Below, one piece after another: positions 24,620-37,516 of a DNA stretch of 64,000 nucleotides. The notes beneath the pieces were generated by a model. The model saw only the letters and a program-made list of their open reading frames with translations. It had not been told where the DNA came from and did not search any database. Position numbers and translations under genes: made by a program. Numbering within the stretch: position 1 is the first letter of the stretch; every line of letters begins with the position of its first letter. This stretch comes from Rhizobiaceae bacterium (GTDB lineage: Bacteria > Pseudomonadota > Alphaproteobacteria > Rhizobiales > Rhizobiaceae). The DNA lies in the NCBI GenBank assembly GCA_019635775.1, contig JAHBYU010000001.1, forward strand, positions 930,001 through 994,000, in the 5' to 3' direction.

Positions 24620-25795
24620 ATGCTTATCAACGCCAAACGGAAAGCGAGCGCTGGCGATGGTCTCGATCCCAGGATCGAAACCATCGAGCAAGACGGCGCT
24701 TACGTTTGCCGGCTCACCGGTAACTGGACGACGCGAAGGGTCGCGGTGGTAGACAAGGAGATGCGGGGCCTTGCCGGCAAAAAGAGGGCGTCAGGCCTGG
24801 TGCTCGACATGTCCGGCATCGGCAGACTCGACACGGCCGGCGCCTGGCTGATCCAGCGTCTCCTGGTGGAAGCCCGCGCGAACGGAATGGAGGCACGCGT
24901 TCAGGGGCAGACCGACGTGGCGGACATCCTGCTGGCCGCGGTGGCCGACGCAACCGACCATCCGGGGGAATCCGGAAAGCAAAAGCGCCCGAATGTGATC
25001 ATCTCGTTCCTCGAGAAGTTCGGCATCGGCGTCTATGAGATGCGTGACGACTTCCTGGCGGCGATGAACATACTGGGTGCCACGATTCGCGGCGGCCAGA
25101 TGAAGCTGGGACGCGGGCACGGAATCAACCTTGCCGCGATATTCTCGCAGATCGATCGCATGGGCGTAGGGGCTATCCCGGTCGTTGTGCTGATGTCAGT
25201 GATCGTTGGCGCAATCATTGCCCAGCAGGGCGCCTATCAGCTTTCCTATTTCGGCGCAGATATCTTCGTCGTCGATCTCGTTGGCATCCTGGTCCTTCGC
25301 GAACTTGGCGTGCTGATGACCGCGATCATGATCGCCGGACGATCAGGAAGCGCCATCACCGCCGAGATAGGCTCGATGAAGATGCGCGAGGAGGTGGATG
25401 CCCTGACCGTCATCGGGCTCAATCCGGTGGGGGTTCTCGTGTTTCCCCGGCTTGTGGCTCTGGTCGTCGCATTGCCGTGCCTCACCATTCTTGCGAATTT
25501 TGCGGCGCTTGGCGGCGGCATCGTGATTTCCTGGTTCTATTCGGACATACCGCCGATCCAGTTCATAGACAGGCTCCGCCTTGCCGTCGACGTTTCAACA
25601 ATTTTCGCCGGTCTCATAAAGGCACCCTTCATGGCGCTGATCATCGGGATAATCGGGGCGGTTGAGGGACTGAAGGTCGGGGGCAGTGCGGAGTCGCTCG
25701 GTCAGCGCGTCACGGCTTCCGTCGTCAAGTCGATCTTCGTCGTCATCATTCTCGACGGCGCCTTTGCCGTATTTTACGCGGCAATCGACTTCTAG
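24620..25795 (+). CDS. mlaE: STAS-MlaE fusion: MCE-system permease
   Basis: A 391-residue inner-membrane permease of the MlaE/Mce (YrbE) family with an N-terminal STAS domain (about residues 18-115, with LVLDMSGIGRLDTAGAWL). The MlaE part (about 140-388) has family blocks such as RELGVLMTAIMIAGRSGSAITAEIGSM (quoted in part: RELGVLMTAI, GRSGSAITAE) and MKMREEVDALTVIGLNP. In E. coli the STAS protein MlaB is separate and docks on the ATPase; here it is fused. It is the first gene of the operon mlaE-mlaF-mlaD-lipoprotein, 10 bases before mlaF. The system moves phospholipids or other lipids across the periplasm. Confidence 0.92.
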   Translation: MLINAKRKASAGDGLDPRIETIEQDGAYVCRLTGNWTTRRVAVVDKEMRGLAGKKRASGLVLDMSGIGRLDTAGAWLIQRLLVEARANGMEARVQGQTDVADILLAAVADATDHPGESGKQKRPNVIISFLEKFGIGVYEMRDDFLAAMNILGATIRGGQMKLGRGHGINLAAIFSQIDRMGVGAIPVVVLMSVIVGAIIAQQGAYQLSYFGADIFVVDLVGILVLRELGVLMTAIMIAGRSGSAITAEIGSMKMREEVDALTVIGLNPVGVLVFPRLVALVVALPCLTILANFAALGGGIVISWFYSDIPPIQFIDRLRLAVDVSTIFAGLIKAPFMALIIGIIGAVEGLKVGGSAESLGQRVTASVVKSIFVVIILDGAFAVFYAAIDF

Positions 25796-25805
25796 GATCG
25801 GCAAA

Positions 25806-26621
25806 ATGGGCGAGGCAGCAGAGATAGAATCGCGCGCGGAAACCTCGAACCAGCCCGAGGTCGTGCTGTCCGTGCGTGACGTGACGGTGGCGTTCGGTGA
25901 AAAGGTTATCCTCGACAAGCTCTCGCTCGATGTGAAGCGGGGCGAAATAATGGGATTCGTCGGCGCATCGGGCTCAGGCAAATCGGTGCTGCTGCGCACC
26001 GTACTCGGCCTCAACAAGAAGCAGCACGGATCGATCAGCCTGTTCGGCGTCGATCTCGACAAGGCAAACGAGGCAGAGCGCATGCGCCTCGACATGCGCG
26101 TCGGAGTGCTTTTCCAGTTCGGGGCGCTGTTTTCCGCCCTGACGGTGATGGAAAACATCCAGGTTCCGATGCGTGAGTATCTCGATCTGCCGCAGAAGCT
26201 GATGGACGAACTGGCGCTGCTCAAGATCGAACTCGTGGGTCTGCCGGCTGACGCGGCCCGCAAATTTCCGAGCGAATTGTCGGGCGGCATGATCAAGCGC
26301 GCCGCGTTGGCCCGGGCCTTGGCGCTGGATCCGGAGATCGTTTTCCTCGACGAGCCCACATCTGGGCTGGACCCGATAGGCGCTGCCGAATTCGACGAGC
26401 TCGTCGCCAAGATGCGAGACACGATGGGTCTGACTGTCTACATGGTGACCCACGACCTCGACAGCCTCTTCTCGATCTGCGATCGGGTTGCCGTTCTGGG
26501 CAAGAAGCGGGTGCTGGTGCAGGGTACGATCAAGGAAATGCTGGCCAGCGAAGAACCCTGGGTAAAATCGTATTTCAGGGGCAAACGTGCGAGGCAACTG
26601 GACCTCGCTTCGAGAGACTAA
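25806..26621 (+). CDS. mlaF: MCE-system ATPase
   Basis: A 271-residue ABC ATPase energising MlaE. Walker A is GASGSGKSVLL, the Q-loop region is LFQFGALFSALTV (typical of MlaF/Mkl proteins), the signature is SGGMIKRAALARAL and Walker B is IVFLDEPTSGLDP, followed by the H-loop in VTHDLDS. The start at 25806 was chosen over an out-of-context upstream start that would overlap mlaE by 110 bases. The first 22 residues are extra compared with E. coli MlaF. Ends 13 bases before mlaD. Confidence 0.94.
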   Translation: MGEAAEIESRAETSNQPEVVLSVRDVTVAFGEKVILDKLSLDVKRGEIMGFVGASGSGKSVLLRTVLGLNKKQHGSISLFGVDLDKANEAERMRLDMRVGVLFQFGALFSALTVMENIQVPMREYLDLPQKLMDELALLKIELVGLPADAARKFPSELSGGMIKRAALARALALDPEIVFLDEPTSGLDPIGAAEFDELVAKMRDTMGLTVYMVTHDLDSLFSICDRVAVLGKKRVLVQGTIKEMLASEEPWVKSYFRGKRARQLDLASRD

Positions 26622-26634
26622 CGACAGGGACGGA

Positions 26635-28008
26635 ATGGAAACCAGAGCCAACTACGTCATCGTCGGTATTTTCACGCTGATAGCGATCGTATCCGCGTTC
26701 CTCTTCGTCTACTGGGCATCCGGGATAGGCGACCGGGGCGAGACGACCTTGCTGCGCATCCGCATTCCGGGATCGGCGGCAGGCCTCGGCCGCGGAAGCG
26801 CGGTGCTCTTCAACGGCGTCAAGGTGGGCGACGTCCGGCGGGTCTATATCGACGTGCTAAACCCAACTGTCGCCATCGCAGACGCTGAAGTGGATCGATT
26901 GACCCCGATCACCAAGTCCACGCAGGCCGATGTGGGCATTGCCGGCCTGACCGGGCAGGCCAACATCGAGTTGCGCGGCGCTGGCCCCACGGAAGCCAAT
27001 CTTCTGGATGAAGCCGAGCAGAACGGCACCGTGGCCGAGATAACGGCCAATCCCTCGGCCGTGACCAACCTGTTGCAAACCGCGCAGGATATCTTCAAGC
27101 GGGCCGACAATGTGCTGAACGACCTTGAAACCTTCACGCGGGATGTTCGCGGGCCGCTCACGCAGACAGCCCAGAACGTCGAAAAATTCTCGCAGGCGCT
27201 GGCGGACAATTCCGCAGGGATCGACAAGTTTCTGTCCAGCGTGTCGGCGCTTGCCGAGGAATTGCAGGGCGTGTCCGGCAAGCTGGATGGCACGCTCAAG
27301 GCTGCCGAGAATCTTCTGAATTCGATCGATACGCAGAAGATCCAGACGATTGTTGGCAATGTGGAAGCCTTCACAGGCGACCTCAAGGAGCAGGGCGCGC
27401 GCCTCGACGGGATCGTGACCGGCGTCGACAAGGCAGTCGCGACGATCACCGATTTCGCCAAGAAGGGCAACGACACACTCACACGAGTGGACGGCATCCT
27501 CGACAGCGTGAACAAGGAGGCAGTTCGCGTTGCGATCGACAATATCGCCAAGGCAAGCGCCAGCGCAGACAAGGCGGCCAGCGATATCGCCAACTTCACG
27601 GGCAAGATCAGTCCACGCGCTGATGACATCAACAAGGTCATCAGCGACGCCAAGGAGATTTCCAACCGGCTCAACGCCGCATCGACACGCGTTGACGGCA
27701 TTCTCGCCAAGGTGGACAGCCTTCTCGGATCCGGGGAGGCCGAGGGCGTCATGGCTGAGGCGAGCTCAACGCTGAAATCCTTCAAGCAGGTTGCAGATAC
27801 GCTGAACTCACGTCTCGGCACGATCATGGACGGGCTTGCGCGCTTTTCCGGACCGGGCCTCCAGGATGTTGACTCGCTGGTTCAGGATGCTCGACGGTCA
27901 ATCAATCGCATCGAGCGGGCGGTCACCGATCTTGAACGTAATCCGCAGCGCATCATAACCGGGGGAGACGGCAGCGTTCGACAGTACGATGGGCGGATGC
28001 GGCGTTGA
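26635..28008 (+). CDS. mlaD: MCE-domain protein with long helical C-terminus
   Basis: A 457-residue protein anchored by one N-terminal membrane helix (residues 7-29), with a single MCE domain (about 38-118, PGSAAGLGRGSAVLFNGVKVG and ADVGIAGLTGQANIEL in part). The remaining 340 residues are almost purely helical, with coiled-coil patterns (for example NVLNDLETFTRDVRG, LDGTLKAAENLLNSI). E. coli MlaD has about 183 residues and lacks this. Long helices after an MCE domain form a hexameric needle in PqiB and in mycobacterial Mce1, so a periplasm-spanning tube is inferred here. RBS GGGACGGA precedes the ATG. Third gene in the operon. Confidence 0.9.
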   Translation: METRANYVIVGIFTLIAIVSAFLFVYWASGIGDRGETTLLRIRIPGSAAGLGRGSAVLFNGVKVGDVRRVYIDVLNPTVAIADAEVDRLTPITKSTQADVGIAGLTGQANIELRGAGPTEANLLDEAEQNGTVAEITANPSAVTNLLQTAQDIFKRADNVLNDLETFTRDVRGPLTQTAQNVEKFSQALADNSAGIDKFLSSVSALAEELQGVSGKLDGTLKAAENLLNSIDTQKIQTIVGNVEAFTGDLKEQGARLDGIVTGVDKAVATITDFAKKGNDTLTRVDGILDSVNKEAVRVAIDNIAKASASADKAASDIANFTGKISPRADDINKVISDAKEISNRLNAASTRVDGILAKVDSLLGSGEAEGVMAEASSTLKSFKQVADTLNSRLGTIMDGLARFSGPGLQDVDSLVQDARRSINRIERAVTDLERNPQRIITGGDGSVRQYDGRMRR

Positions 28009-28084
28009 CATTGGAGGTTGGGGTCCGCATGACTTGGGATGAGGGAAGGCCTGCCACGGCACAGCGTGGTTGCGGGGACGCGGC

Positions 28085-28678
28085 TTGAGACTGGTGAATG
28101 CGATATCGGCAGCTCTGGCTGTTTCTCTTCTTCTGCCGGGCTGTGCACTGCTCGGTGGTTCGAAGCCTCTCGATACCTATGAACTGACTGCTCCGAGCGC
28201 CGGCGACGGACGCGGACGAAGCTATCGGCAGATACTGATCGCCGAGCCTTCGGCGCTCAAGGCGCTGGACGGGCAGAACATCGTGATCACGCCGGCTCCG
28301 GGGAATATCCAGTACCTCAAGGGCGCGCAGTGGGCGGATCGGCTGCCAAAGATCGTGCAGGCACGGCTGGCAGAGACGTTCCAGCGGTCCGGCGAGTTCC
28401 GTGGCGTCGGCAGGCCTGGCGAAGGGCTCGCGATCGACTATCAGGTGATCATCGACATCCGCTCCTTCCAGGTTGACGTAAACGGCGCGGCGCGGGCCGA
28501 CGTGGAACTGTTCGTGCGGCTGCTGAATGATCGCAACGGCGTGGTTCGTGCCGAGAAGGTATTCACGACGACAGCGCCAGTGGCCGGGACCGGCAACGCG
28601 GCCTATGTCGGCGCGCTGGATGCCGCTTTCGGCCAGGCGGCAGTCGAGATCGTGGACTGGACCAGCAAGCTGCTTTGA
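28085..28678 (+). CDS. ABC-type transport auxiliary lipoprotein, PqiC-like
   Basis: About 197 residues from a TTG at 28085 with GGGGA six bases upstream; other starts (TTG 28070, GTG 28094) are possible. A lipoprotein signal ends with lipobox LPGC. The mature domain matches the ABC-type transport auxiliary lipoprotein family (DUF330), including YLKGAQWADRLPKIVQARL near the middle and the C-terminal Ala-rich helix. E. coli PqiC of this family forms a ring in the outer membrane where the PqiB needle docks. Here it follows the MCE protein by 76 bases and would be its outer-membrane partner. Confidence 0.85.
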   Translation: MRLVNAISAALAVSLLLPGCALLGGSKPLDTYELTAPSAGDGRGRSYRQILIAEPSALKALDGQNIVITPAPGNIQYLKGAQWADRLPKIVQARLAETFQRSGEFRGVGRPGEGLAIDYQVIIDIRSFQVDVNGAARADVELFVRLLNDRNGVVRAEKVFTTTAPVAGTGNAAYVGALDAAFGQAAVEIVDWTSKLL

Positions 28679-28698: not shown

Positions 28699-29439
28699 TC
28701 AGACCGTCGTTGAAAGTCCGAGAGACTTCTGATGCACGACGATAGGCGCATGGTAGGGAACCCGCCTGTAGAGATCGATCACGTCCTGATTGACCAGCCT
28801 CACGCAGCCGGAGGAAACGGCCTTCCCGATGGACTGCCATTCAGGCGTGCCGTGAAGGCGATAGAGCGTATCCTGACCGTTCTGGAATATGTAGAGCGCC
28901 CGCGCGCCGAGCGGGTTCCTGATGCCGGGCTCCATTCCCCCGTTCTCGACTGAATACTTGGCCAGTTCGGGCTGGCGCGCGATCATCTCGGCCGGCGGCT
29001 TCCAGCGAGGCCACGCCTGACGCCAGTGAATTATGCCCTGACCCTGCCAGGCGAATCCGTCGCGGCCGATGCCGACGCCATAGCGCATCGCGGTGCCTCC
29101 GGGCTCCGTGAGATACAGGAACCTGCCGACCGTATCGACCACCACGGTGCCTGGTTTCTCGCCGGTCGGGTCGATGACCCTCTGGCGGTAGAACTTGGAG
29201 TTCATCTGCCTGAACGGCACGGCGGGAATTAGATGTCCCCCATCCTGTAGCGCGGCATAGCGGGCTTCCAGCTCGCTTTCAGGGGCAAGGCCCACCGGCT
29301 TGCGAGGCGCTACTGGACGCGGTGTTTTGGGAGTATCCGAACCGCTTGTGGTTGTGCAGCCGGCTGCGAAGAGGGAGGCTGAAACGGATAAGGAAATAAA
29401 GCCCCGGCGGCTCAGTGGCCGGGCGGTATAGTCATGCAT
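28699..29439 (-). CDS. L,D-transpeptidase lipoprotein
   Basis: A 246-residue YkuD-family enzyme that makes 3-3 peptidoglycan cross-links or attaches proteins to the wall. The N-terminus has a twin-arginine motif (LSRRGF) and a lipobox (AAGC at about residue 28), so it is probably exported folded by Tat and lipid-anchored. The catalytic block reads HGTPEWQSIGKAVSSGCVRL, with the nucleophile Cys near residue 210. Substrate-side motif GVGIGRDGFAWQG is also typical. It lies directly downstream of the giant GPR-like gene on the same strand, although a terminator separates them. Rhizobia rich in 3-3 links encode many such enzymes. Confidence 0.92.
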   Translation of the reverse strand: MHDYTARPLSRRGFISLSVSASLFAAGCTTTSGSDTPKTPRPVAPRKPVGLAPESELEARYAALQDGGHLIPAVPFRQMNSKFYRQRVIDPTGEKPGTVVVDTVGRFLYLTEPGGTAMRYGVGIGRDGFAWQGQGIIHWRQAWPRWKPPAEMIARQPELAKYSVENGGMEPGIRNPLGARALYIFQNGQDTLYRLHGTPEWQSIGKAVSSGCVRLVNQDVIDLYRRVPYHAPIVVHQKSLGLSTTV

Positions 29440-29593: not shown

Positions 29594-32500
29594 TTAGCGC
29601 AATCGACCGGCCGCGTGCGCCAGCATGGTGTAAACCTTGCCGGTGTCCGAGGTAAGGTAGGTGCGCGTCATCGTCTTGTCCCGATCGTTGCGCGCGACAT
29701 CGTTCAGCAGTTTTTCGAAATCCTCGCAGTAGCGGTTCACCGCTGCCCGGAATTCGGAATCCGACTGATACTTGCGCCGGATCTCGTCGAAAGTCTGCTG
29801 TCCCTTGAGCGTGTAGAGGCGCCGTGTAAACACGTCACGCTCACCACGCCGATAGCGGTCCCAAAGCTCGATCGATGCATCGTGGTCAATCGCCCGGGCG
29901 ATATCGACGGACAGCGAATTCAGCGACTCCACGACCTGAAGAGGCGAACGCTGGGTCGGCGCCGGGCGAGGGGCGTCTGCCACCTTTGCCTGCGTGTCTT
30001 CGCGCGAGGCACCCTGCAGCAGATCGCTCACCCAGCCACCCTGAGGTGTAGCTGCACCCTCGCGGCCCTGTGTCGAAGTCTCGGCCGGACGCTCGGTGGT
30101 CAACGTTGCGGCCCGAGCCGGTGCTGCCGGAGCAGCAGGGGCTGGACGGCGCGGCGCAGTTGCCTGCGGAGCTGCAGGCTGCTGCGGGGCGGGGGCTGCC
30201 GGACGGGGAGCCTGAGGCGCTGGCGCTGCCGCACGAGGAGCAGCCGGCGCGGCGCGTGAAGCGGACACGTCGGAGTTGCGACCGGACTTCGCGACGATCG
30301 CGGACAGTTCCTTGAGCGCGTTGATCTGCTCGCTGACGGCCCGGCGGATGGCCGTGGTCGATTCCTTTGCCTCCATAGGAAGCTCGAAAACGCCCTTCTT
30401 GATCTCTGCGCGCGTTTCCTCGAGCTCGCTACGGATGCCCTGAGCAGCACGGCGCATGTCTTCCGTTGCCCCGCTGAAGCGGGTTGTGGCCGACTCGATG
30501 AGATCCGCGAATGCGTTGCGCATCTTCTCTGTCGATTCGAGCGTCCGGCCTTCGGCCTTCTGCATCGCGTTGCCGACAAGGTTCTCGAAGGAGCGCATGA
30601 CGCGTTCGAGGTCCTCCGACTTCTTGACCAGTCCGACAGCAAGGTCCTCCAGCGAAGACTGGCGCTCGAGCGTCTGCTCCAGATTGTTCTGGGCCGAGCT
30701 GAGCAGGTCGGATGCACTGGCAAGAAGCTTGCTGTGGGCTTCGAACTTGGTCGCGATGGAGGCGACCTCACGCAGCGTGTTCGAGGACAGTTCGGTGAGC
30801 CGGTTGGTGTTCTGGTCCACAAGGCGTGCGCTGCTCGCGAAGGTCTGGGCCGCCCGCTCCGTGCTCGCAGCAAAGTTTTGCGTGCTGCTGGTGAGATGCT
30901 CGTCGACATTGGTGAGGTTTGTTGCCGCCGCCTCGATCAGGCCGTTGAGCTGGCTGCTCGACTCGGCCAGACGCCCGATCAGGTCGCTTACGCCTTCCGA
31001 CAGGCTGTTGCGCGCTCCATGAACGGCAGACAGGGTTTCGGCTGTGCGGTTTGCCAAGGCCTCGACCAATGTCTGGTTTTCCGCACGCAACCGCTCGGCC
31101 GTACGTGCCGAAACTCCCTCCACTGCGTTGACGGTTTCGGTGGTGCGATGCGCAAGCGTGTCGACGAGTTCCTGGCTTCCAAGGTTCAGACGCTCGGTCG
31201 AACGGGCAGTGACTTCCTCGACAGCCTGCAGCGTCTCGGCAGTGCGGCTTGCCAGAGTATCAACAAATTCCCGGCTACCGAGATGCAGCCGCTCGGTGGA
31301 GCGGGCAGTGACGTCCTCGACAGCCTGCAGGGTCTGAGCGGTGCGGCTTGCCAGCGTGTCGACGAGTTCCTGGCTTCCAAGGTTCAGACGCTCGGTTGAA
31401 CGGGCGGTTACTTCCTCGACAGCCTGCAGCGTTTCGGCGGTGCGGTTTGCAAGCGCGTCGACAAGCGTCTGGCTCTCCATGCGCATCCGTTCGGTCGAAC
31501 GGGCAGTCACGTCTTCCAGCGTCTGGGCGAGCTCATTGCCGGTCTGGCCGAACCGATCGACCAGCGGACGCGCCGTCTCATCGAGAATACGGGTGATCTC
31601 CGCCGAGCGTTCGGCCAGCATGGCGTTGAGTTCGCGTGTGTTTACCCCGATCGTGCGCGCCGCTTCGTTGGTGCTCTGGCCGATGTGCTGGCCCACCGCA
31701 GCGAAGGTCTCGGAAATGACGTTCGCACGGTCAATCAGCTGCTGTTCGGCGTGCGCTACCTGCTCGCCGAGCTTTTCGCCCATCGTGACGGCTCCGGCCG
31801 CGAGGCGGTTCTCGGCATCCTCGACATGGGCGTTGACGCGGGCCGCCACGGCCTGGGCTCCCGATGCCAACCTTTCGTCGGCAATGGCCAGCGTCTCGTC
31901 TATGGCGCGTACGCGTTCGTCCAGTTCGGCCGAGGTCTGCTGGGTCCGCGCGGCGATCCGCTTTTCGGTATCCGCGAAGGCGCTGACGATACCCTCGGCA
32001 TGTTCGCCAATTGCCATCGCGCTCTCGCCGATCTTCGCTGCGAGACGCTGTTCTGCCTCATCGAAGAGGTTTGAAACTTCCAGTGCCCGGTTCGAAAGGA
32101 CCTGCGTCGTGTCGTCCACGCGGGTCGCAACCTGCCGGTCGACGGTCGCAAAGATATTGCCGATCTCGGCCGCGCGGCCCGAAAGGGTGCTGGCCGTTTC
32201 TGCGACGCGGTTGGAAAGGCGTTTGTCGGCTTCCTCGAAATTGAAGATGATTTCGCCAGCCTTGGTTCCAAGCGCGGCCGCGCTGTCCGCGACGCGATCG
32301 GCCAGGCGCTGGTCGGCCTCGTCAAAAATGCGTCCCAGTTCGCCAGCGCGCGCTTCCAGCTTTTCGGCGCCGTCGGCTATACGGGCAACCAGCTTTTCGT
32401 CGGCACGGTCGAAGATGCTGCCAAGCTCGGACGCTCGGGATGCCAATGCATCGGCGGACTCGCTGATACGCATGCCGAGCCGCTGGTCGGCATCATCGAA

Positions 32501-35500
32501 ATTGCGGACGATGTCGCCGGCGCGCGCAGCCAGTGAACCGACGGTCTCCATTGCGCGCGCCACCAGTTTCTGATCGGCCTCGCTGAAGACTTCGGCTATC
32601 TGATCGGCCTTTCTGGCGAGCACGTTGCCGATCTCTTCGGTGTGGCCGAGCAGTGCGCCCGACGTTTCCTGAGCGCGGGCGGCGAGGCGGGCATCCGCTT
32701 CGTCGAAGGCCTGCGAAATCTGCTCGGCCCTATTGGCCATCCGGTTTGCGATCTCGTCGCCGTGATTGACCAGCGCGACAGACGTTTCCTTGGCACGGGC
32801 GGCAAGACGCTGGTCTGCTTCGTCCATGACCTTCGCGATCTCGCCGGCACGTTCCGTCATCAGGCTTGCAACCTCTTCGCCGCGCGCCAGAAGCGCGCTG
32901 GAGGTAGCCTCTGTGCGGGCTGCAATCTTGCTGTCGGCTTCACCGAACGCCTTGGCGATGTCCTCGACGCGAGCGAAAAGGGCGCTCGACGTCTGTTCGG
33001 CACGCTCAGCCATGCGCTTATCGGCTTCCGCGAACGCGTTTCCTGCTTCCTCGTTCAGCGTATTGGTGACTTCCAGAACCTTGTCCCGCAGGGCGCCGGC
33101 AACCGTCACGGCGCTCTTTTCGAGAACGGAGCGTACGTTGTCGACGCCGAGGTTCAGCGCGCGCTCCATTGTGCTGGTGCGCTCCTCGATGACGCCGGTC
33201 TGGCGGCGGAAGGCTTCCTCAATCTTCTCGACATCTGCCGCCACGGCCTGGGAGATGTCGACCCGCTTGCCGGCTATGGTGTCGATGTGGGCGGCAATGG
33301 CTGCGTCTATCTCACGACGGGCCTCTGCCAGCTTGCCGAGATCCTCATCAAGGGCACGCGCCATCGTATCGCGGCCTTCTGCGAGGCGGGCGACGTGAAT
33401 ATTGACCACATCGTCGAATGCCGCGCGGCCTTCAGCGACCTTCTCAAGGTCTGCCTGAAGGGCCTTCGACAGCGTCTCGCGGCCATCGGCGATCTTTTGC
33501 ACCTGGGCGGCCACGAGGCCATCCACGACGTCGCGGGCCTCGGTGAGCTTGTCGAGGTCTGCCTGCAGGGCACGGGTAAGGATGTCGCGGCCCTGCGCAA
33601 GCTTCTCGACCTGGCCGGCAACAAGGCCGTCAATGTTGGAGCGGCTTTCGGCAAGCTTGGAAAGATCGTCCTCAAGCGCCTTTGTAAGCATGTCGCGGCC
33701 TTCGGCGAACTTCTGGACCTGGCCCGAGATGAAGCCATCGATGGTGGCGCGTGTGTTGTCTAGCTTTTCGAGGTCGGATTTGAGCGCCTCGGAAAGGACG
33801 CCGCGGCCCTCGGCGATCTTCTCGACGTGGCTGGCTACCAGCGCATCGACTTCGCCGCGCGCTTCGGAAATCTTGGTGAGGTCAACCTCCAGTGCGCGCT
33901 TCAGGATGTCGCGTCCTTCGGCTAGCTTCTCGACCTGGCTGGCCACGATCGTATCGATGTTGGCACGGCTCTCAGCCAGCTTGCTGAGGTCGGTTTCAAG
34001 GGCCTTCGTCAGCCCTGCGCGTCCTTCTGCAAACTTCTCCACATGCGTCTCGAGCAGGCCGTTGATTCCCGCGATGTCAGCCTCGAGCGCCTGAGCGAGG
34101 GTTTCACGGCCGCGATCCAGCCGCTTCAGCTGCTCACCGACCATATCCTCGACGACCTGACGGCCTTCCTTGAGCTTCTCGACATCTGTCTCCAGCACCT
34201 TGGCGATGGAGTTGCGGCCGTCCGCGAACTTCTGGATCTGGCTCTCTACGAGATTATCTATCGCTGAAAGATCGGCTTTCAGGGCACGCGATAGAATGTC
34301 GCGACCTTCTGCAAGCTTCTCAACCTGCGCAGCGACGATGCCGTCGATGCTGCTGCGAGCCTCGGAGAGCTTGCCGAGGTCGGCTTCGAGGGCACGAGAC
34401 AGGATATTGCGACCTTCGGCGAGTTTCCCAACGTGGCCGGCGACCATTTCATCAATAGTAATACGGGTTTGTGCCAACTTCTGCGAGTCTTCGGTCAGGA
34501 TCTTCGACAGGCTGTCCCGGCTCTGCGAGAGCCTTTCCAACTGGCTTCCCAGGGCCGCGTCGATCGACGCGCGCTGATCGTTGATCTTGCGCAGGTCTTC
34601 CTCAAGGGCGCGCGAGAGCATGTTGCGGCCTTCGGCAAGCTTCTGGACCTGAGATCCGACCGCTGCATCAATGGACGCCCGGCCTTCTGCGAAACGCTGA
34701 AGATCCGACTGCAGTGCGGCCGCCATGCGGTCGCGGCTTTCGGAAAGCTTGCGGGTGTGGTTCTCGACAGCCTGCTCGATGCCGCTGCGGGCCTCTGTTA
34801 GCCGCTGGATATCAGCATCGAAAGCGCGCGACACCACGTGGCGTGCATGATCGAGGCGCCCGGCAAAGTCGGCCGCACGTCCTTCAAGCATGGAGGAGGT
34901 TGACTCGACGATATCGGACATCTCGGCCCCGATGCGGGACTTGCCCTCGTCGATCATGCCAAACAGGGTTTCCTTGCCTTCGATGAAGGTGGTGGCGATC
35001 TCCCTTGCGCGCTCGACCAGCGTTTCGTTGATCTGGCGTGCGCGCGCTTCAAGCGCGGCATTGAGCTTGGCCGTACCGGTGTCGAGCGCATGGGCCCGTG
35101 TCTCGAACTCGCTGATAAGGCCCTGACCGCGCTCGGACAGAGTGCGTTCGATGCTGTTCAGGCTCGCTTCGAATTCCGAGCTGAGAGTACGTGCCGCGCC
35201 GCCCAGCAGCGACACCATTCCAGACGTGCGGTCGTCTAGGAGGTCCGTCAGCGAACGTGTGAGGTTGTCGGTCGAATCGGTAAGCTTGGCGATGCGCGTG
35301 TCGAGCAGGCTGGCGAATGCCTCGCCGGAAGTGGTCAGCCGGTCGGTGATCGAATCGACGCGCGAATCCAGCGAATCGAAGAGATTCATGCCGCTTTCGT
35401 TGATGCGGTCGATCAGCGTGTCGCCCGAATTCGTTATCGTCATCGACAGGTTGGTCGATGCGTTGAGGATGGAATCGCGGATGATGTCGGACGCCTGTCC

Positions 35501-36439
35501 GATTTCGTCACGCAGCGTCTCATGGGCTCCGGTGATGGAGGCGCGGACGCGTTCTGCGTGGGTCACAACAGCTTCGCGCTCGCTGCCAAGGCCATCGACG
35601 AGCGCCCTGATACGGGCGGCATTTTCCGAATAGGACCGCTCGATCTGATTGACCTCGGTGTGGACCAGGGTCTCAAGCTCAACGGCGCGCGCAAGCGTCC
35701 GCTCAATGCCTTCGCCCATGGCCGCAACCTCGCGGCGGACGGCCTGGCCGACCATCATGACGCGGTCCTGCGCAAGGTTTTCCGGCTCGGCAAGCCGGAA
35801 CGCCACCTCTGTCATGGACTGCGCTGCAAGCCGCATTTCCTGAGCCCTGCGAACCATCGCGGCGAAAGCCCAGATCAAAACGACCGGCAAAAATACGCCG
35901 ATGCCGAACATGACGAGTTCGGGGCGGGACAAGGCGCTCGATCCGGACTGCCAAAGTCCCGGGAACATGCGATCGGCGATGAAAGCGGATGCGCCGAGCC
36001 AGACGACTGAAAGGGCTGCAGCAATCCAGTATACAGTACCGGAAGCGCGCTTGTTCAAGCTGTTCAGCGCGCTGCGAAAATCTTTCTGCCGGTCATCGTT
36101 GGCGGGCGCGAACGATGCCGGTTGGGCGGCGACGACGGGACGCTCGACGGGACGGTCCACCGGCCGCTCAAGGGCCGCTGGCCTATCGGCAGACCTTTCA
36201 ACCACAGGTTCGACGGCTCGCAGATCGTCGTTTCGGCGGGAGGAGGAAACGTGCTGGTTGCCGCGTCCTTCCCGAACCAACTCATCCGCGGCTTGGGAAA
36301 TCTGGGCTTCCAGGTCGTCCATGCTTGCGGTGGGTTCCGCCGTGACGCGCGCTTCCGCGAAGTCGAGGTCGAGCGCGTTTTCCAGTTCCCGGGATACGTC
36401 GCTTTCGATTGTCCTGGTGGTGGTCGTATGTTTCGCCAT
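29594..36439 (-). CDS. Giant coiled-coil membrane protein, GPR/RgsE-like polar growth organiser
   Basis: A 2281-residue protein. The N-terminus (1-130) is acidic then Pro/Arg-rich and probably cytosolic. Two membrane helices follow at about 135-155 and 175-195. About 1750 residues of coiled coil come next, containing three repeat arrays (residues about 564-1076, 1136-1526 and 1644-1808). Then come more helices, an Ala/Pro-rich linker (about 2020-2120) and a conserved-looking C-terminal domain with LWDRYRRGERDVFTRRLY. Size, two N-terminal helices and Apolipoprotein-like repeats match the growth-pole-ring protein GPR of Agrobacterium and RgsE of Sinorhizobium, which form a ring at the growing pole. 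Such proteins are often mislabelled kinesin-like. Homology is by architecture, so the role is a strong inference. Confidence 0.85.
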   Translation of the reverse strand: MAKHTTTTRTIESDVSRELENALDLDFAEARVTAEPTASMDDLEAQISQAADELVREGRGNQHVSSSRRNDDLRAVEPVVERSADRPAALERPVDRPVERPVVAAQPASFAPANDDRQKDFRSALNSLNKRASGTVYWIAAALSVVWLGASAFIADRMFPGLWQSGSSALSRPELVMFGIGVFLPVVLIWAFAAMVRRAQEMRLAAQSMTEVAFRLAEPENLAQDRVMMVGQAVRREVAAMGEGIERTLARAVELETLVHTEVNQIERSYSENAARIRALVDGLGSEREAVVTHAERVRASITGAHETLRDEIGQASDIIRDSILNASTNLSMTITNSGDTLIDRINESGMNLFDSLDSRVDSITDRLTTSGEAFASLLDTRIAKLTDSTDNLTRSLTDLLDDRTSGMVSLLGGAARTLSSEFEASLNSIERTLSERGQGLISEFETRAHALDTGTAKLNAALEARARQINETLVERAREIATTFIEGKETLFGMIDEGKSRIGAEMSDIVESTSSMLEGRAADFAGRLDHARHVVSRAFDADIQRLTEARSGIEQAVENHTRKLSESRDRMAAALQSDLQRFAEGRASIDAAVGSQVQKLAEGRNMLSRALEEDLRKINDQRASIDAALGSQLERLSQSRDSLSKILTEDSQKLAQTRITIDEMVAGHVGKLAEGRNILSRALEADLGKLSEARSSIDGIVAAQVEKLAEGRDILSRALKADLSAIDNLVESQIQKFADGRNSIAKVLETDVEKLKEGRQVVEDMVGEQLKRLDRGRETLAQALEADIAGINGLLETHVEKFAEGRAGLTKALETDLSKLAESRANIDTIVASQVEKLAEGRDILKRALEVDLTKISEARGEVDALVASHVEKIAEGRGVLSEALKSDLEKLDNTRATIDGFISGQVQKFAEGRDMLTKALEDDLSKLAESRSNIDGLVAGQVEKLAQGRDILTRALQADLDKLTEARDVVDGLVAAQVQKIADGRETLSKALQADLEKVAEGRAAFDDVVNIHVARLAEGRDTMARALDEDLGKLAEARREIDAAIAAHIDTIAGKRVDISQAVAADVEKIEEAFRRQTGVIEERTSTMERALNLGVDNVRSVLEKSAVTVAGALRDKVLEVTNTLNEEAGNAFAEADKRMAERAEQTSSALFARVEDIAKAFGEADSKIAARTEATSSALLARGEEVASLMTERAGEIAKVMDEADQRLAARAKETSVALVNHGDEIANRMANRAEQISQAFDEADARLAARAQETSGALLGHTEEIGNVLARKADQIAEVFSEADQKLVARAMETVGSLAARAGDIVRNFDDADQRLGMRISESADALASRASELGSIFDRADEKLVARIADGAEKLEARAGELGRIFDEADQRLADRVADSAAALGTKAGEIIFNFEEADKRLSNRVAETASTLSGRAAEIGNIFATVDRQVATRVDDTTQVLSNRALEVSNLFDEAEQRLAAKIGESAMAIGEHAEGIVSAFADTEKRIAARTQQTSAELDERVRAIDETLAIADERLASGAQAVAARVNAHVEDAENRLAAGAVTMGEKLGEQVAHAEQQLIDRANVISETFAAVGQHIGQSTNEAARTIGVNTRELNAMLAERSAEITRILDETARPLVDRFGQTGNELAQTLEDVTARSTERMRMESQTLVDALANRTAETLQAVEEVTARSTERLNLGSQELVDTLASRTAQTLQAVEDVTARSTERLHLGSREFVDTLASRTAETLQAVEEVTARSTERLNLGSQELVDTLAHRTTETVNAVEGVSARTAERLRAENQTLVEALANRTAETLSAVHGARNSLSEGVSDLIGRLAESSSQLNGLIEAAATNLTNVDEHLTSSTQNFAASTERAAQTFASSARLVDQNTNRLTELSSNTLREVASIATKFEAHSKLLASASDLLSSAQNNLEQTLERQSSLEDLAVGLVKKSEDLERVMRSFENLVGNAMQKAEGRTLESTEKMRNAFADLIESATTRFSGATEDMRRAAQGIRSELEETRAEIKKGVFELPMEAKESTTAIRRAVSEQINALKELSAIVAKSGRNSDVSASRAAPAAPRAAAPAPQAPRPAAPAPQQPAAPQATAPRRPAPAAPAAPARAATLTTERPAETSTQGREGAATPQGGWVSDLLQGASREDTQAKVADAPRPAPTQRSPLQVVESLNSLSVDIARAIDHDASIELWDRYRRGERDVFTRRLYTLKGQQTFDEIRRKYQSDSEFRAAVNRYCEDFEKLLNDVARNDRDKTMTRTYLTSDTGKVYTMLAHAAGRLR
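31016..31510 (-). repeat. 33-residue (99-bp) repeat array, five units, in the giant protein
   Basis: Five consecutive 33-residue units start with V(T/S)AR(S/T)(T/A)ER and contain (L/F)V(D/E)(T/A)LA and RT(A/T)(E/Q)T. Thirty-three is three hendecads. Units two and four share 43 identical bases (31354-31396 and 31156-31198), exactly 198 bases apart, which points to recent duplication or gene conversion. Confidence 0.9.
31860..33028 (-). repeat. 29/40-residue repeat array, twelve units, in the giant protein
   Basis: Twelve units begin with (E/D)AD(Q/K)(R/K)L or a variant and end in a FD/FE/FA/FS-type pair. Nine have 29 residues and three (units 2-4) have 40, the difference being an 11-residue insert at one place. 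Only the protein level is regular; codons have diverged. Confidence 0.85.
33210..34750 (-). repeat. 36-residue repeat array, about fifteen units, in the giant protein
   Basis: About fifteen units start with K(L/F/I)AEGR and continue with (L/I)...AL..DL.KL.E.R..ID..V..QV. Thirteen are 36 residues; two (units five and seven) are 29, both lacking the same 7-residue segment after the DL/DI position. The DNA spacing is 108 bp. Confidence 0.88.
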
Positions 36440-36709
36440 GCCGCCTTTACCCTCTACTTACAGCGTGCGAATGCCTTGTACTGGCACAATAATAATCGCA
36501 CACGAGGCATTTTATGGACCCGCCGTATCGTAGTGACACAGACTGGTAAAGGAAACATCCAATCCGGGTGATATGTAAAAGTTTAAACATAAGGTTAATA
36601 CCGGGAGGCTTTGCGGCGAATTTATGCCGGTTTTTAGGCGTTTCCCCGGTTAACGCCTTGTCCACTCGTGGCACTTATCGTTCCTGCACTGCGAGGACGG
36701 GGGAGAAGT
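36440..36709. promoter_or_regulatory. Divergent intergenic region between giant-protein and Hpt genes
   Basis: A relatively AT-rich gap that must carry the promoters of both genes. TTAA occurs at 36583-36586 and 36595-36598 (8 bases between) and GTTAAC at 36651-36656. These recall the CtrA half-site TTAA, but the spacing is one base longer than the usual seven. No terminator or RNA gene is seen. Confidence 0.4.
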
Positions 36710-37093
36710 TTGTTGGCTATTTTGCGTAATGGTTACGAGAATGTGGCCTTCTCCATGCCCGGAGGGGAGCCGTCAGGGACGCGGCGGTCGCGTCCGGTGG
36801 ATCTGTCTCACCTCTCATTGCAGACAATGGGCGACCGCGATCTCGAACGCGAAGTGCTGGGAATGTTTGTCGAGCAGGCACAGACGGTGCGCAGGCAAAT
36901 GGCCAATGCGGGTGCCAAGGAGCGTCTCTTCCTTGCCCATTCTCTGAAAGGGTCTGCACGGGGGATCGGGGCCTTTCCGATCGCGGAATGCGCGGAGGCG
37001 GTCGAAGCGCAACCCTCGGACGCGTTGACGCTGAAACGTCTATCTAAGCTCATAGACGAGGCCTGTGACTTCATCGCTTCGATCGATCGATAG
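36710..37093 (+). CDS. Hpt domain phosphotransfer protein
   Basis: About 127 residues from a TTG at 36710, preceded by GGGGGAGAAG; a GTG at 36668 would add 14 residues but lacks a ribosome site. The Hpt helix bundle spans about residues 50-125 with the phospho-accepting His in AHSLKGSARGIGA, followed by the family Gly and a helix with ECAEAVEAQ. There is no kinase or receiver domain in the protein, so it should relay phosphate between other proteins. No cognate kinase is adjacent; the hybrid kinase CckA is 12 kb away, but its usual partner ChpT is a different fold. Divergent from the GPR-like gene. Confidence 0.82.
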   Translation: MLAILRNGYENVAFSMPGGEPSGTRRSRPVDLSHLSLQTMGDRDLEREVLGMFVEQAQTVRRQMANAGAKERLFLAHSLKGSARGIGAFPIAECAEAVEAQPSDALTLKRLSKLIDEACDFIASIDR

Positions 37094-37195
37094 GTCGCAT
37101 ATGGCGGTTTCATGCCGGAGGGTGGCGCTTTTGCGCCGCAGTTGACTCATGTCGCGGAGTCATTATCTCGGAAGCTCCACTGCCCGGGACTGCAT

Positions 37196-37516
37196 ATGAC
37201 CAAGCTCACCTACATTGCATTTGATGGCACGCGCTTCGAAGTCGAGGCCGAAAACGGCTCGACCGTCATGGAGAACGCAATCCGCAATGCCGTGCCGGGC
37301 ATTGAGGCCGAGTGCGGCGGCGCGTGCGCCTGCGCAACCTGTCATGTCTATGTTGATGAGGCATGGACCGGCGTTGTCGGGCAGCCTGAGGCGATGGAAG
37401 AGGACATGCTGGATTTTGCCTACGACGTCAGGCCGACTTCACGCCTTTCGTGCCAGATCAGGGTCCGTGACGAACTCGACGGCCTCGTGGTGAGCATACC
37501 AGAGCGTCAGGGTTGA
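37196..37516 (+). CDS. [2Fe-2S] ferredoxin, adrenodoxin type
   Basis: A 106-residue ferredoxin. The ATG at 37196 is chosen for the ribosome site GGGA and because the fold begins there ([11 protein letters not shown]). Cluster ligands are in CGGACACATC (Cys-x5-Cys-x2-Cys) and a fourth Cys in LSCQIRV about 35 residues on, the layout of vertebrate-type ferredoxins such as FdxB and Rhodobacter FdVI. These feed iron-sulfur assembly or cytochrome P450s. The gene is 100 bases upstream of a ferredoxin-NADP reductase on the same strand, a probable electron-donor pair. Confidence 0.93.

Follow-up and report, generated by a model that had tools for sequence, protein, structure and literature searches.

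The window, the whole 64,000-nucleotide stretch of DNA that was analyzed, encodes an orthologue of the polar-growth protein RgsE/GPR. The conserved ends of this protein flank a giant helical rod, all of which can be tiled by a single grammar of 7- and 11-residue blocks. Among close homologues, indels in the rod preserve the phase of its hydrophobic stripe, and the length of the rod is variable. We put a probability of about 75% on the reading that RgsE/GPR is a membrane-anchored polar-growth scaffold in which a helical cable, phase-locked but tolerant of length changes, connects the conserved ends. The literature describes GPR/RgsE well, and there it is a leading scaffold candidate for the single growing tip of Hyphomicrobiales. 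The block grammar and the phase rule give a defined register to an otherwise shapeless 1,800-residue "coiled coil", and the phase rule makes the comparison of in-phase with out-of-phase deletions a decisive test.

The RgsE/GPR orthologue and its conserved ends

The gene was identified by its open reading frame and BLASTP. An exact open reading frame at 29594..36439 on the minus strand encodes a product of 2,281 aa. The initial annotation had reported this product without its strand and had proposed GPR/RgsE homology, which is borne out by sequence, architecture, gene order, and near-universal single occurrence. BLASTP between Sinorhizobium meliloti RgsE (2,089 aa) and the window protein aligned aa 1062-2280 with an E value of 3e-109, and another alignment (E 2e-73) starts at aa 7; the rod portion is largely low-identity coil. 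The homologue used as RgsE is from S. meliloti strain Ak57, in a record of a plasmid collection (L178:4085-10354) that annotates it as "kinesin"; its 2,089 aa equal the published length of RgsE (PMC7327166). The 3.7-Mb record that contains it, along with cytochrome bc1 genes, is labelled plasmid pSymB and looks like a mislabelled or fused replicon.

Similarity to RgsE was found along the window protein, together with the two N-terminal membrane helices, the giant helical rod, and the shared neighbourhood. The whole protein has a single place in its own genome. Among the matches listed, its closest named relatives belong to Mesorhizobium, Aminobacter, and related genera. Judged by its sequence, the gene is the RgsE orthologue of a Mesorhizobium-like Hyphomicrobiales bacterium, and it is also a GPR orthologue because of the published relation between RgsE and GPR. 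S. meliloti RgsE (SMc00190) shares the two N-terminal membrane helices, the rod, a Pro/Ala linker, and a C-terminal domain that is 83% identical to that of the window protein. Agrobacterium tumefaciens GPR (Atu1348), which we liken to the window protein by published layout and not residue by residue, is described as a 2,115-aa protein with two membrane helices, a 1,700-aa helical region, low-complexity segments near the C-terminus, and a ring at the growing pole (PMC8262873).

All of the following features lie on the minus strand. Hydropathy places the first membrane helix at about aa 136-154 (35978..36034) and the second at about aa 175-193 (35861..35917), in agreement with the two N-terminal membrane helices noted before. 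The conserved start of the rod, or N-cap, was delimited by identity and tiling and covers aa 202-330 (35450..35836). Writing h for a 7-residue and N for an 11-residue tile, its pattern is hNhhNhhNhh, which is seen in 73 of 74 rods of the window's own clade (the Mesorhizobium side, hereafter near-clade) and in 78 of 99 other rods, a group that includes L221, which belongs to a Mesorhizobium-side genus. At the far end of the rod lies a conserved pre-linker helix, or C-cap, at aa 1960-2053 (30281..30562). A linker follows at aa 2054-2164 (29948..30280), Pro/Ala-rich in sequence from about aa 2059, and then the C-terminal domain of 117 aa (aa 2165-2281; 29597..29947), defined by conservation and a seven-helix model. 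Median identity over 101 homologues was 0.46 for aa 120-330 (membrane part and N-cap), 0.43 for the pre-linker helix, 0.62 for the C-terminal domain, and 0.26-0.28 for three rod samples; this set counts RgsE twice (L178) and includes L221 and a Sphingomonas protein (L179).

The strong conservation of the C-terminal domain, which the initial annotation had anticipated, is also evident from its distribution. It was present in 190 of the 199 genomes of the order searched and absent from nine; among good-quality genomes, 170 of 174 had it. Each genome had one place for it except G002, which had two. The model of the domain has seven helices (pLDDT 82.4, pTM 0.79). No known fold could be assigned to it: Pfam matches were weak and scattered, with no family above cut-off, a PDB sequence search gave a best E value of 0.078, and Foldseek of the model against the PDB found no match at E ≤ 0.001. 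In A. tumefaciens, loss of a region including this domain blocks complementation (PMC8262873). A conserved domain without a Pfam family, together with the conserved Hpt neighbour described below, provides two further entry points into polar growth.

Block structure of the helical rod

Self-comparison of the rod against shuffles recovered the periodicities of 36, 29/40, and 33 residues that had been reported, in the reported order. The z values reached 24.7 for offset 36, 16.3 for 29, 12.7 for 40, and 19.9 for 33. Features of the rod are again on the minus strand. The three arrays are preceded by a stretch of 11-residue repeats (hendecads) at about aa 310-535 (34835..35512), seen by self-comparison, stripe, and tiling and absent from the initial annotation. 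The 18/36-residue array, which is (7+11)n with a few extra hendecads and has a stripe period of 3.60, spans about aa 536-1060 (33260..34834). Its 26 anchor positions lie between aa 547 and 1037, and 22 of the 25 steps between them are 18 residues, two are 29, and one is 36. The 29/40-residue array, 7+11+11(+11) with a stripe period of 3.63, runs from about aa 1136 to 1545 (31805..33034); its steps from aa 1136 are 29, 40, 40, and 40, then eight of 29, and a closing step of 22. The 33-residue array, 3 × 11, consists of five units at about aa 1641-1805 (31025..31519), with anchors from aa 1646. The earlier counts of twelve 29/40 steps and five 33-residue units hold, but there are about 13-14 units of 36 rather than fifteen.

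These arrays had been taken for three different repeat families. They are instead three mixtures of the same 7- and 11-residue blocks, since 18 is 7+11, 29 is 7+11+11, 40 is 7+11+11+11, 36 is 2 × 18, and 33 is 3 × 11. Dynamic programming was used to tile aa 236-2052 with 7- and 11-residue tiles, and a tile start was scored as hydrophobic if it was Leu, Ile, Val, Met, or Phe. With the (7,11) set, 96% of the tile starts were hydrophobic, compared to 60% for shuffles in a matched test and 28-72% for eight other tile sets. Three independent repeat families were therefore replaced by a single 7/11 tiling. The resulting barcode of the window rod reads hNhhNhhNhh at the start, a hendecad run, hNhNhN..., then hNNNhNNNhNNN hNNhNN..., hendecads again, and the conserved end. 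The S. meliloti RgsE rod differs in composition. Hendecads predominate there and heptad tiles make up 21%, while the window rod has 35% heptad tiles plus the 18/36 and 29/40 arrays; by eye, the RgsE rod has long internal duplications in contrast to these arrays.

The hydrophobic stripe has a period of 3.60 residues per turn in the 36 array, 3.63 in the 29/40 array, and 3.66-3.675 (3.67) around the 33 array. A straight stripe has a period of about 3.63 residues per turn, so the three sections would be slightly left-handed, straight, and slightly right-handed, respectively. Such differences would give a quantitative basis to the "mechanically different sections" suggested before. The window rod contains no Trp or Cys and only 0.1% Tyr, and its stripe is narrow. 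The 18-residue register has four invariably hydrophobic positions, along with a fixed Arg and a fixed Lys/Arg position. From this composition we infer a stripe that would serve assembly, as opposed to a wide face that binds lipids. An AlphaFold model of aa 202-716 was helical with two breaks, at low confidence (pLDDT 65.8, pTM 0.22).

Rod variation across Hyphomicrobiales and its possible causes

We compared 75 near-clade rods with 98 other rods from 32 families. The Mesorhizobium-side set is the best 80 of at least 561 confirmed matches and is biased towards near relatives. Rod limits were set automatically, and family counts are also given since the homologues are phylogenetically non-independent. 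The rod statistics leave out L167 (a 10-base placeholder), L097 (881 aa), and nine partial frames (L043, L074, L088, L094, L100, L101, L108, L118, and L120). L084 and L168, with no detected membrane helix, are in the pair and tile counts and outside the length ranges, and L182, a truncated frame without membrane helices, was kept out of the length examples. The group of other rods includes L221 in the stripe, identity, array-motif, and some tile counts, and Sphingomonas L179 in the stripe, identity, and array-motif counts; the counts for 75 and 98 rods were repeated without these two.

The tiling with at least 85% hydrophobic starts applied to 74 of 75 near-clade rods and 96 of 98 others. The two groups differed in how the tiles were arranged. 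The pattern hNhNhNhN was found in 71/75 near-clade rods and in 6/98 others (all one family), and hNNhNNhNN in 71/75 and 8/98 (4 families), respectively. Runs of at least 30 consecutive hendecads occurred in none of the 75 near-clade rods and in 87 of the 98 others (27 families). This contrast in tile patterns makes the heptad-rich rod characteristic of the window's clade. The median stripe period was 3.62 in the near-clade and 3.66 in the others, with L221 and L179 among the latter. The longest hendecad run, in homologues L133 and L188, has about 164 tiles; its 1,804 residues would extend roughly 265 nm if fully helical. It is possible, although we say so tentatively, that the Hyphomicrobiales rods form a class of phase-locked, length-free helical cables in which the hendecad run leans right-handed and the heptads of the Mesorhizobium clade have retuned the stripe from 3.66 to 3.62, nearly straight. 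If this were true, the geometry of the growth-pole ring would depend on twist, not length.

Indels were read from pairwise alignments of close homologues, and well-matched flanks were required. In 30 disjoint near-clade pairs of at least 75% identity, all 34 rod indels had whole-turn lengths at 3.60-3.63 residues per turn, and none was of 1-6 aa. Their lengths were 11, 22, 29, 36, 40, 51, 58, 65, 72, 87, 94, and 137 residues. For the 33 indels of 4-120 aa, the mean cosine was 0.93 at a period of 3.625; long indels such as that of 137 residues are too long for a test of phase. Outside the rod, 49 of 50 indels in these pairs were of 1-6 aa. Similar results were obtained with 20 disjoint pairs from other families (at least 70% identity), where 20 of 22 rod indels were of 11, 22, 33, 40, 44, 55, or 66 residues (mean cosine of these whole-turn indels 0.99 at period 3.667) and 19 of 21 non-rod indels were of 1-6 aa. 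Both exceptional rod indels (1 residue and 2 residues) are located near the Pro-rich linker, some 30 residues away from it. Across all 46 other-family pairs at 75% identity or more, 4 of 86 rod indels were of 1-2 aa, all near the rod's end. The near-clade set at 70% identity or more, which is non-independent, had no indels of 1-6 residues among 749 distinct rod indels.

One alternative explanation is that the quantized lengths come from the mutation process alone, through unequal recombination between tandem repeats or short-read repeat collapse, with no selection on phase. In the near-clade, most indels have the length of the local array unit (29, 36, 58, 65, 72). The inspected indels of 11 residues copy similar hendecads next to them, so repeat recombination explains much of the quantization. 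However, indels of 1-6 aa are common in the flanks of the same genes and nearly absent in the rods. When rod deletions of 1-6 aa were simulated, 38-43 of 48 trials at each size recovered them, which argues that this lack is not due to blindness of the method. Collapse as the sole source is contradicted by pairs of single-contig or complete replicon records, which still show rod indels of 29, 36, 44, 62, 65, and 80 residues and one of 2 aa near the rod's end. We consider mutation alone to be somewhat unlikely, and we infer selection on the stripe phase because small rod indels are missing. Another possible explanation starts from the ruler-like protein suggested in the initial annotation: at the growing pole, a fixed distance would be set by the total length of the rod and by its three sections. 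The conserved ends connected by a long helical middle and the sections with differing stripe periods would suit a ruler, but length is not conserved. Rods ranged over 2.6-fold in the near-clade (920-2,407 aa in 74 rods) and from 563 to 2,439 aa in 96 other rods with a detected membrane helix, and the rods of homologues that are 97-98% identical can differ in length by whole blocks of 33 or 40 residues (L127/L183, L131/L186, and L185/L186). Apart from the window protein itself, L046 alone carries the motif of the window's 33-residue array (2 of 74 near-clade proteins), and among the alignments listed, the site lacks 132 residues (four units) in all 13 relatives besides L046. Other, weaker 33-residue self-matches appeared at a looser threshold in 5/75 near-clade and 32/98 other proteins. 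The window's array has a DNA period of 99 and is a recent expansion. A partial contrast is provided by the neighbouring MpcD-like coiled coil, in which 31 disjoint pairs had just 3 indels (1, 2, and 80 aa). Its length does vary over the order, where 56 of 75 MpcD-like ORFs are of 450-479 aa and the rest of 270-690. A conserved three-section ruler was thus rejected, and we regard a ruler of any kind as quite improbable.

A published proposal for GPR gives the rod apolipoprotein homology and a role in sorting or holding polar lipids. The window protein matches the apolipoprotein A1/A4/E family PF01442 with 98.3 bits, above the curated cut-off of 90, and S. meliloti RgsE with 257.8 bits. In addition, published deletions of the apolipoprotein-like regions disturb growth (PMC8262873). 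In a reversed-sequence control, however, a 501-residue segment of the window rod scored higher reversed than forward (67.9 versus 64.7 bits; one segment), as did a 501-residue segment of the RgsE rod (128 versus 117.4 bits; one segment). PF01442 matches below cut-off occurred in 7 of 14 control genomes, and a genome scan gave six places, each below cut-off, the best with 34.6 bits. Since reversed segments match equally well, the match reflects the 11/22-residue amphipathic helical periodicity that the family and the window rod have in common, and it is no evidence of common descent. A narrow stripe almost without Trp and Tyr also counts against a lipid binder. The homology published for GPR fails this control on both RgsE and the window protein, which removes the main sequence argument for an apolipoprotein. 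The control bears on homology and not on lipid binding as a function. We find the apolipoprotein reading very doubtful.

Polar growth and the gene neighbourhood

In the proposed scaffold with its phase-locked cable, the two N-terminal helices would anchor the protein in the inner membrane and leave nearly all of it cytoplasmic. About 1,840 residues would form a helical rod with a single continuous narrow hydrophobic stripe, and the 7/11 blocks would make every unit length (18, 29, 36, 40, and 33) a whole number of helical turns. Through the stripe, copies may associate side by side and form a cable where the pole grows. The elongation machinery could be docked by the conserved ends of the rod, and by the C-terminal domain past the Pro/Ala linker. 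Selection would hold the phase of the stripe and free its length, so that rods gain and lose whole blocks.

Several of these steps have been described for relatives. Membrane anchoring, location at the new pole, ring formation, and a scaffold role are published, as are misshapen cells on loss of the protein and interactions of RgsE with TolQ, RgsA, and RgsS (PMC7327166; PMC8262873; PMC7822825; PMC9938171). RgsE is anchored in the inner membrane with its bulk in the cytoplasm (PMC7327166), and GPR forms a ring of six foci in A. tumefaciens (PMC8262873). The published GPR deletions are of 20 residues (21 in the abstract). One 20-aa deletion caused the strongest interference and another largely complemented, and both forms showed paired foci when replacing the wild type (PMC8262873). 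A deletion of 20 residues is about 5.5 turns and out of phase. In view of these mixed outcomes, the assay shows no strict dependence on phase. The foci are 50 nm across, and the authors, who quote 600 nm for the extended 1,700-residue region, conclude that the chain must fold (PMC8262873). By our arithmetic, 1,700 residues as a continuous alpha-helix would span about 250 nm. A straight single rod is hard to reconcile with foci of 50 nm. In its main text, PMC8262873 does not use the words "repeat", "ruler", "periodic", "heptad", or "hendecad". Among the matches listed from the open-licence literature, no paper was found that links the growth pole ring with hendecads, heptads, or Hpt. An open-licence paper on coiled-coil indels with hendecads or length conservation was likewise not found, and a term search of the accessible text of a 2015 paper on coiled-coil evolution (PMC4350178) gave no "indel", "insertion", or "deletion".

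The neighbours of the gene are conserved on one side. An Hpt-domain gene (36668..37093, plus strand; PF01627, 32.2 bits, cut-off 24.6) is divergently oriented and is followed by a 2Fe-2S ferredoxin gene (37112..37516, plus strand; tblastn). In 151 of 174 loci, an Hpt-related ORF lies upstream of the RgsE/GPR gene at a distance of up to 3 kb, and in 148 of these it is divergent. The ferredoxin has a tblastn match in 61/61 near-clade loci and in 93/103 other loci, which include three Mesorhizobium-like ones (L118, L119, and L221). A phosphorelay link between the Hpt gene and polar growth is a candidate. The Hpt, ferredoxin, DUF922, and FolP genes are shared with S. meliloti SMc00190, while the other side differs, with bc1 genes in S. 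meliloti and Mpc-like genes in the window.

These Mpc-like genes (24620-28678, plus strand) encode MlaE with a STAS domain, an MlaF-like ABC ATPase, an MlaD-like coiled-coil protein, and an ABC-transport auxiliary lipoprotein, a layout that equals the Mpc inter-membrane lipid transport system (PMC12436622). Such genes lie near RgsE/GPR in 54-55 of 61 near-clade loci. Like RgsE/GPR, the MpcD-type MCE proteins encoded nearby are membrane-anchored with a long coiled coil; unlike it, they are described as a periplasmic needle and proposed lipid channel with different domains (PMC12436622). Directly downstream of the RgsE/GPR gene is an L,D-transpeptidase (YkuD) gene (28699-29439, minus strand). 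A tblastn search of the flanks retrieved for 61 near-clade and 103 other loci gave no relatives of it, which suggests that it was inserted in the window's lineage. Outside Hyphomicrobiales, Sphingomonas parapaucimobilis (L179) has a short version of 774 aa with a related C-terminal domain (39.8% identity). It adjoins a gene annotated as Hpt, whose similarity to the window's Hpt is weak (E 0.002).
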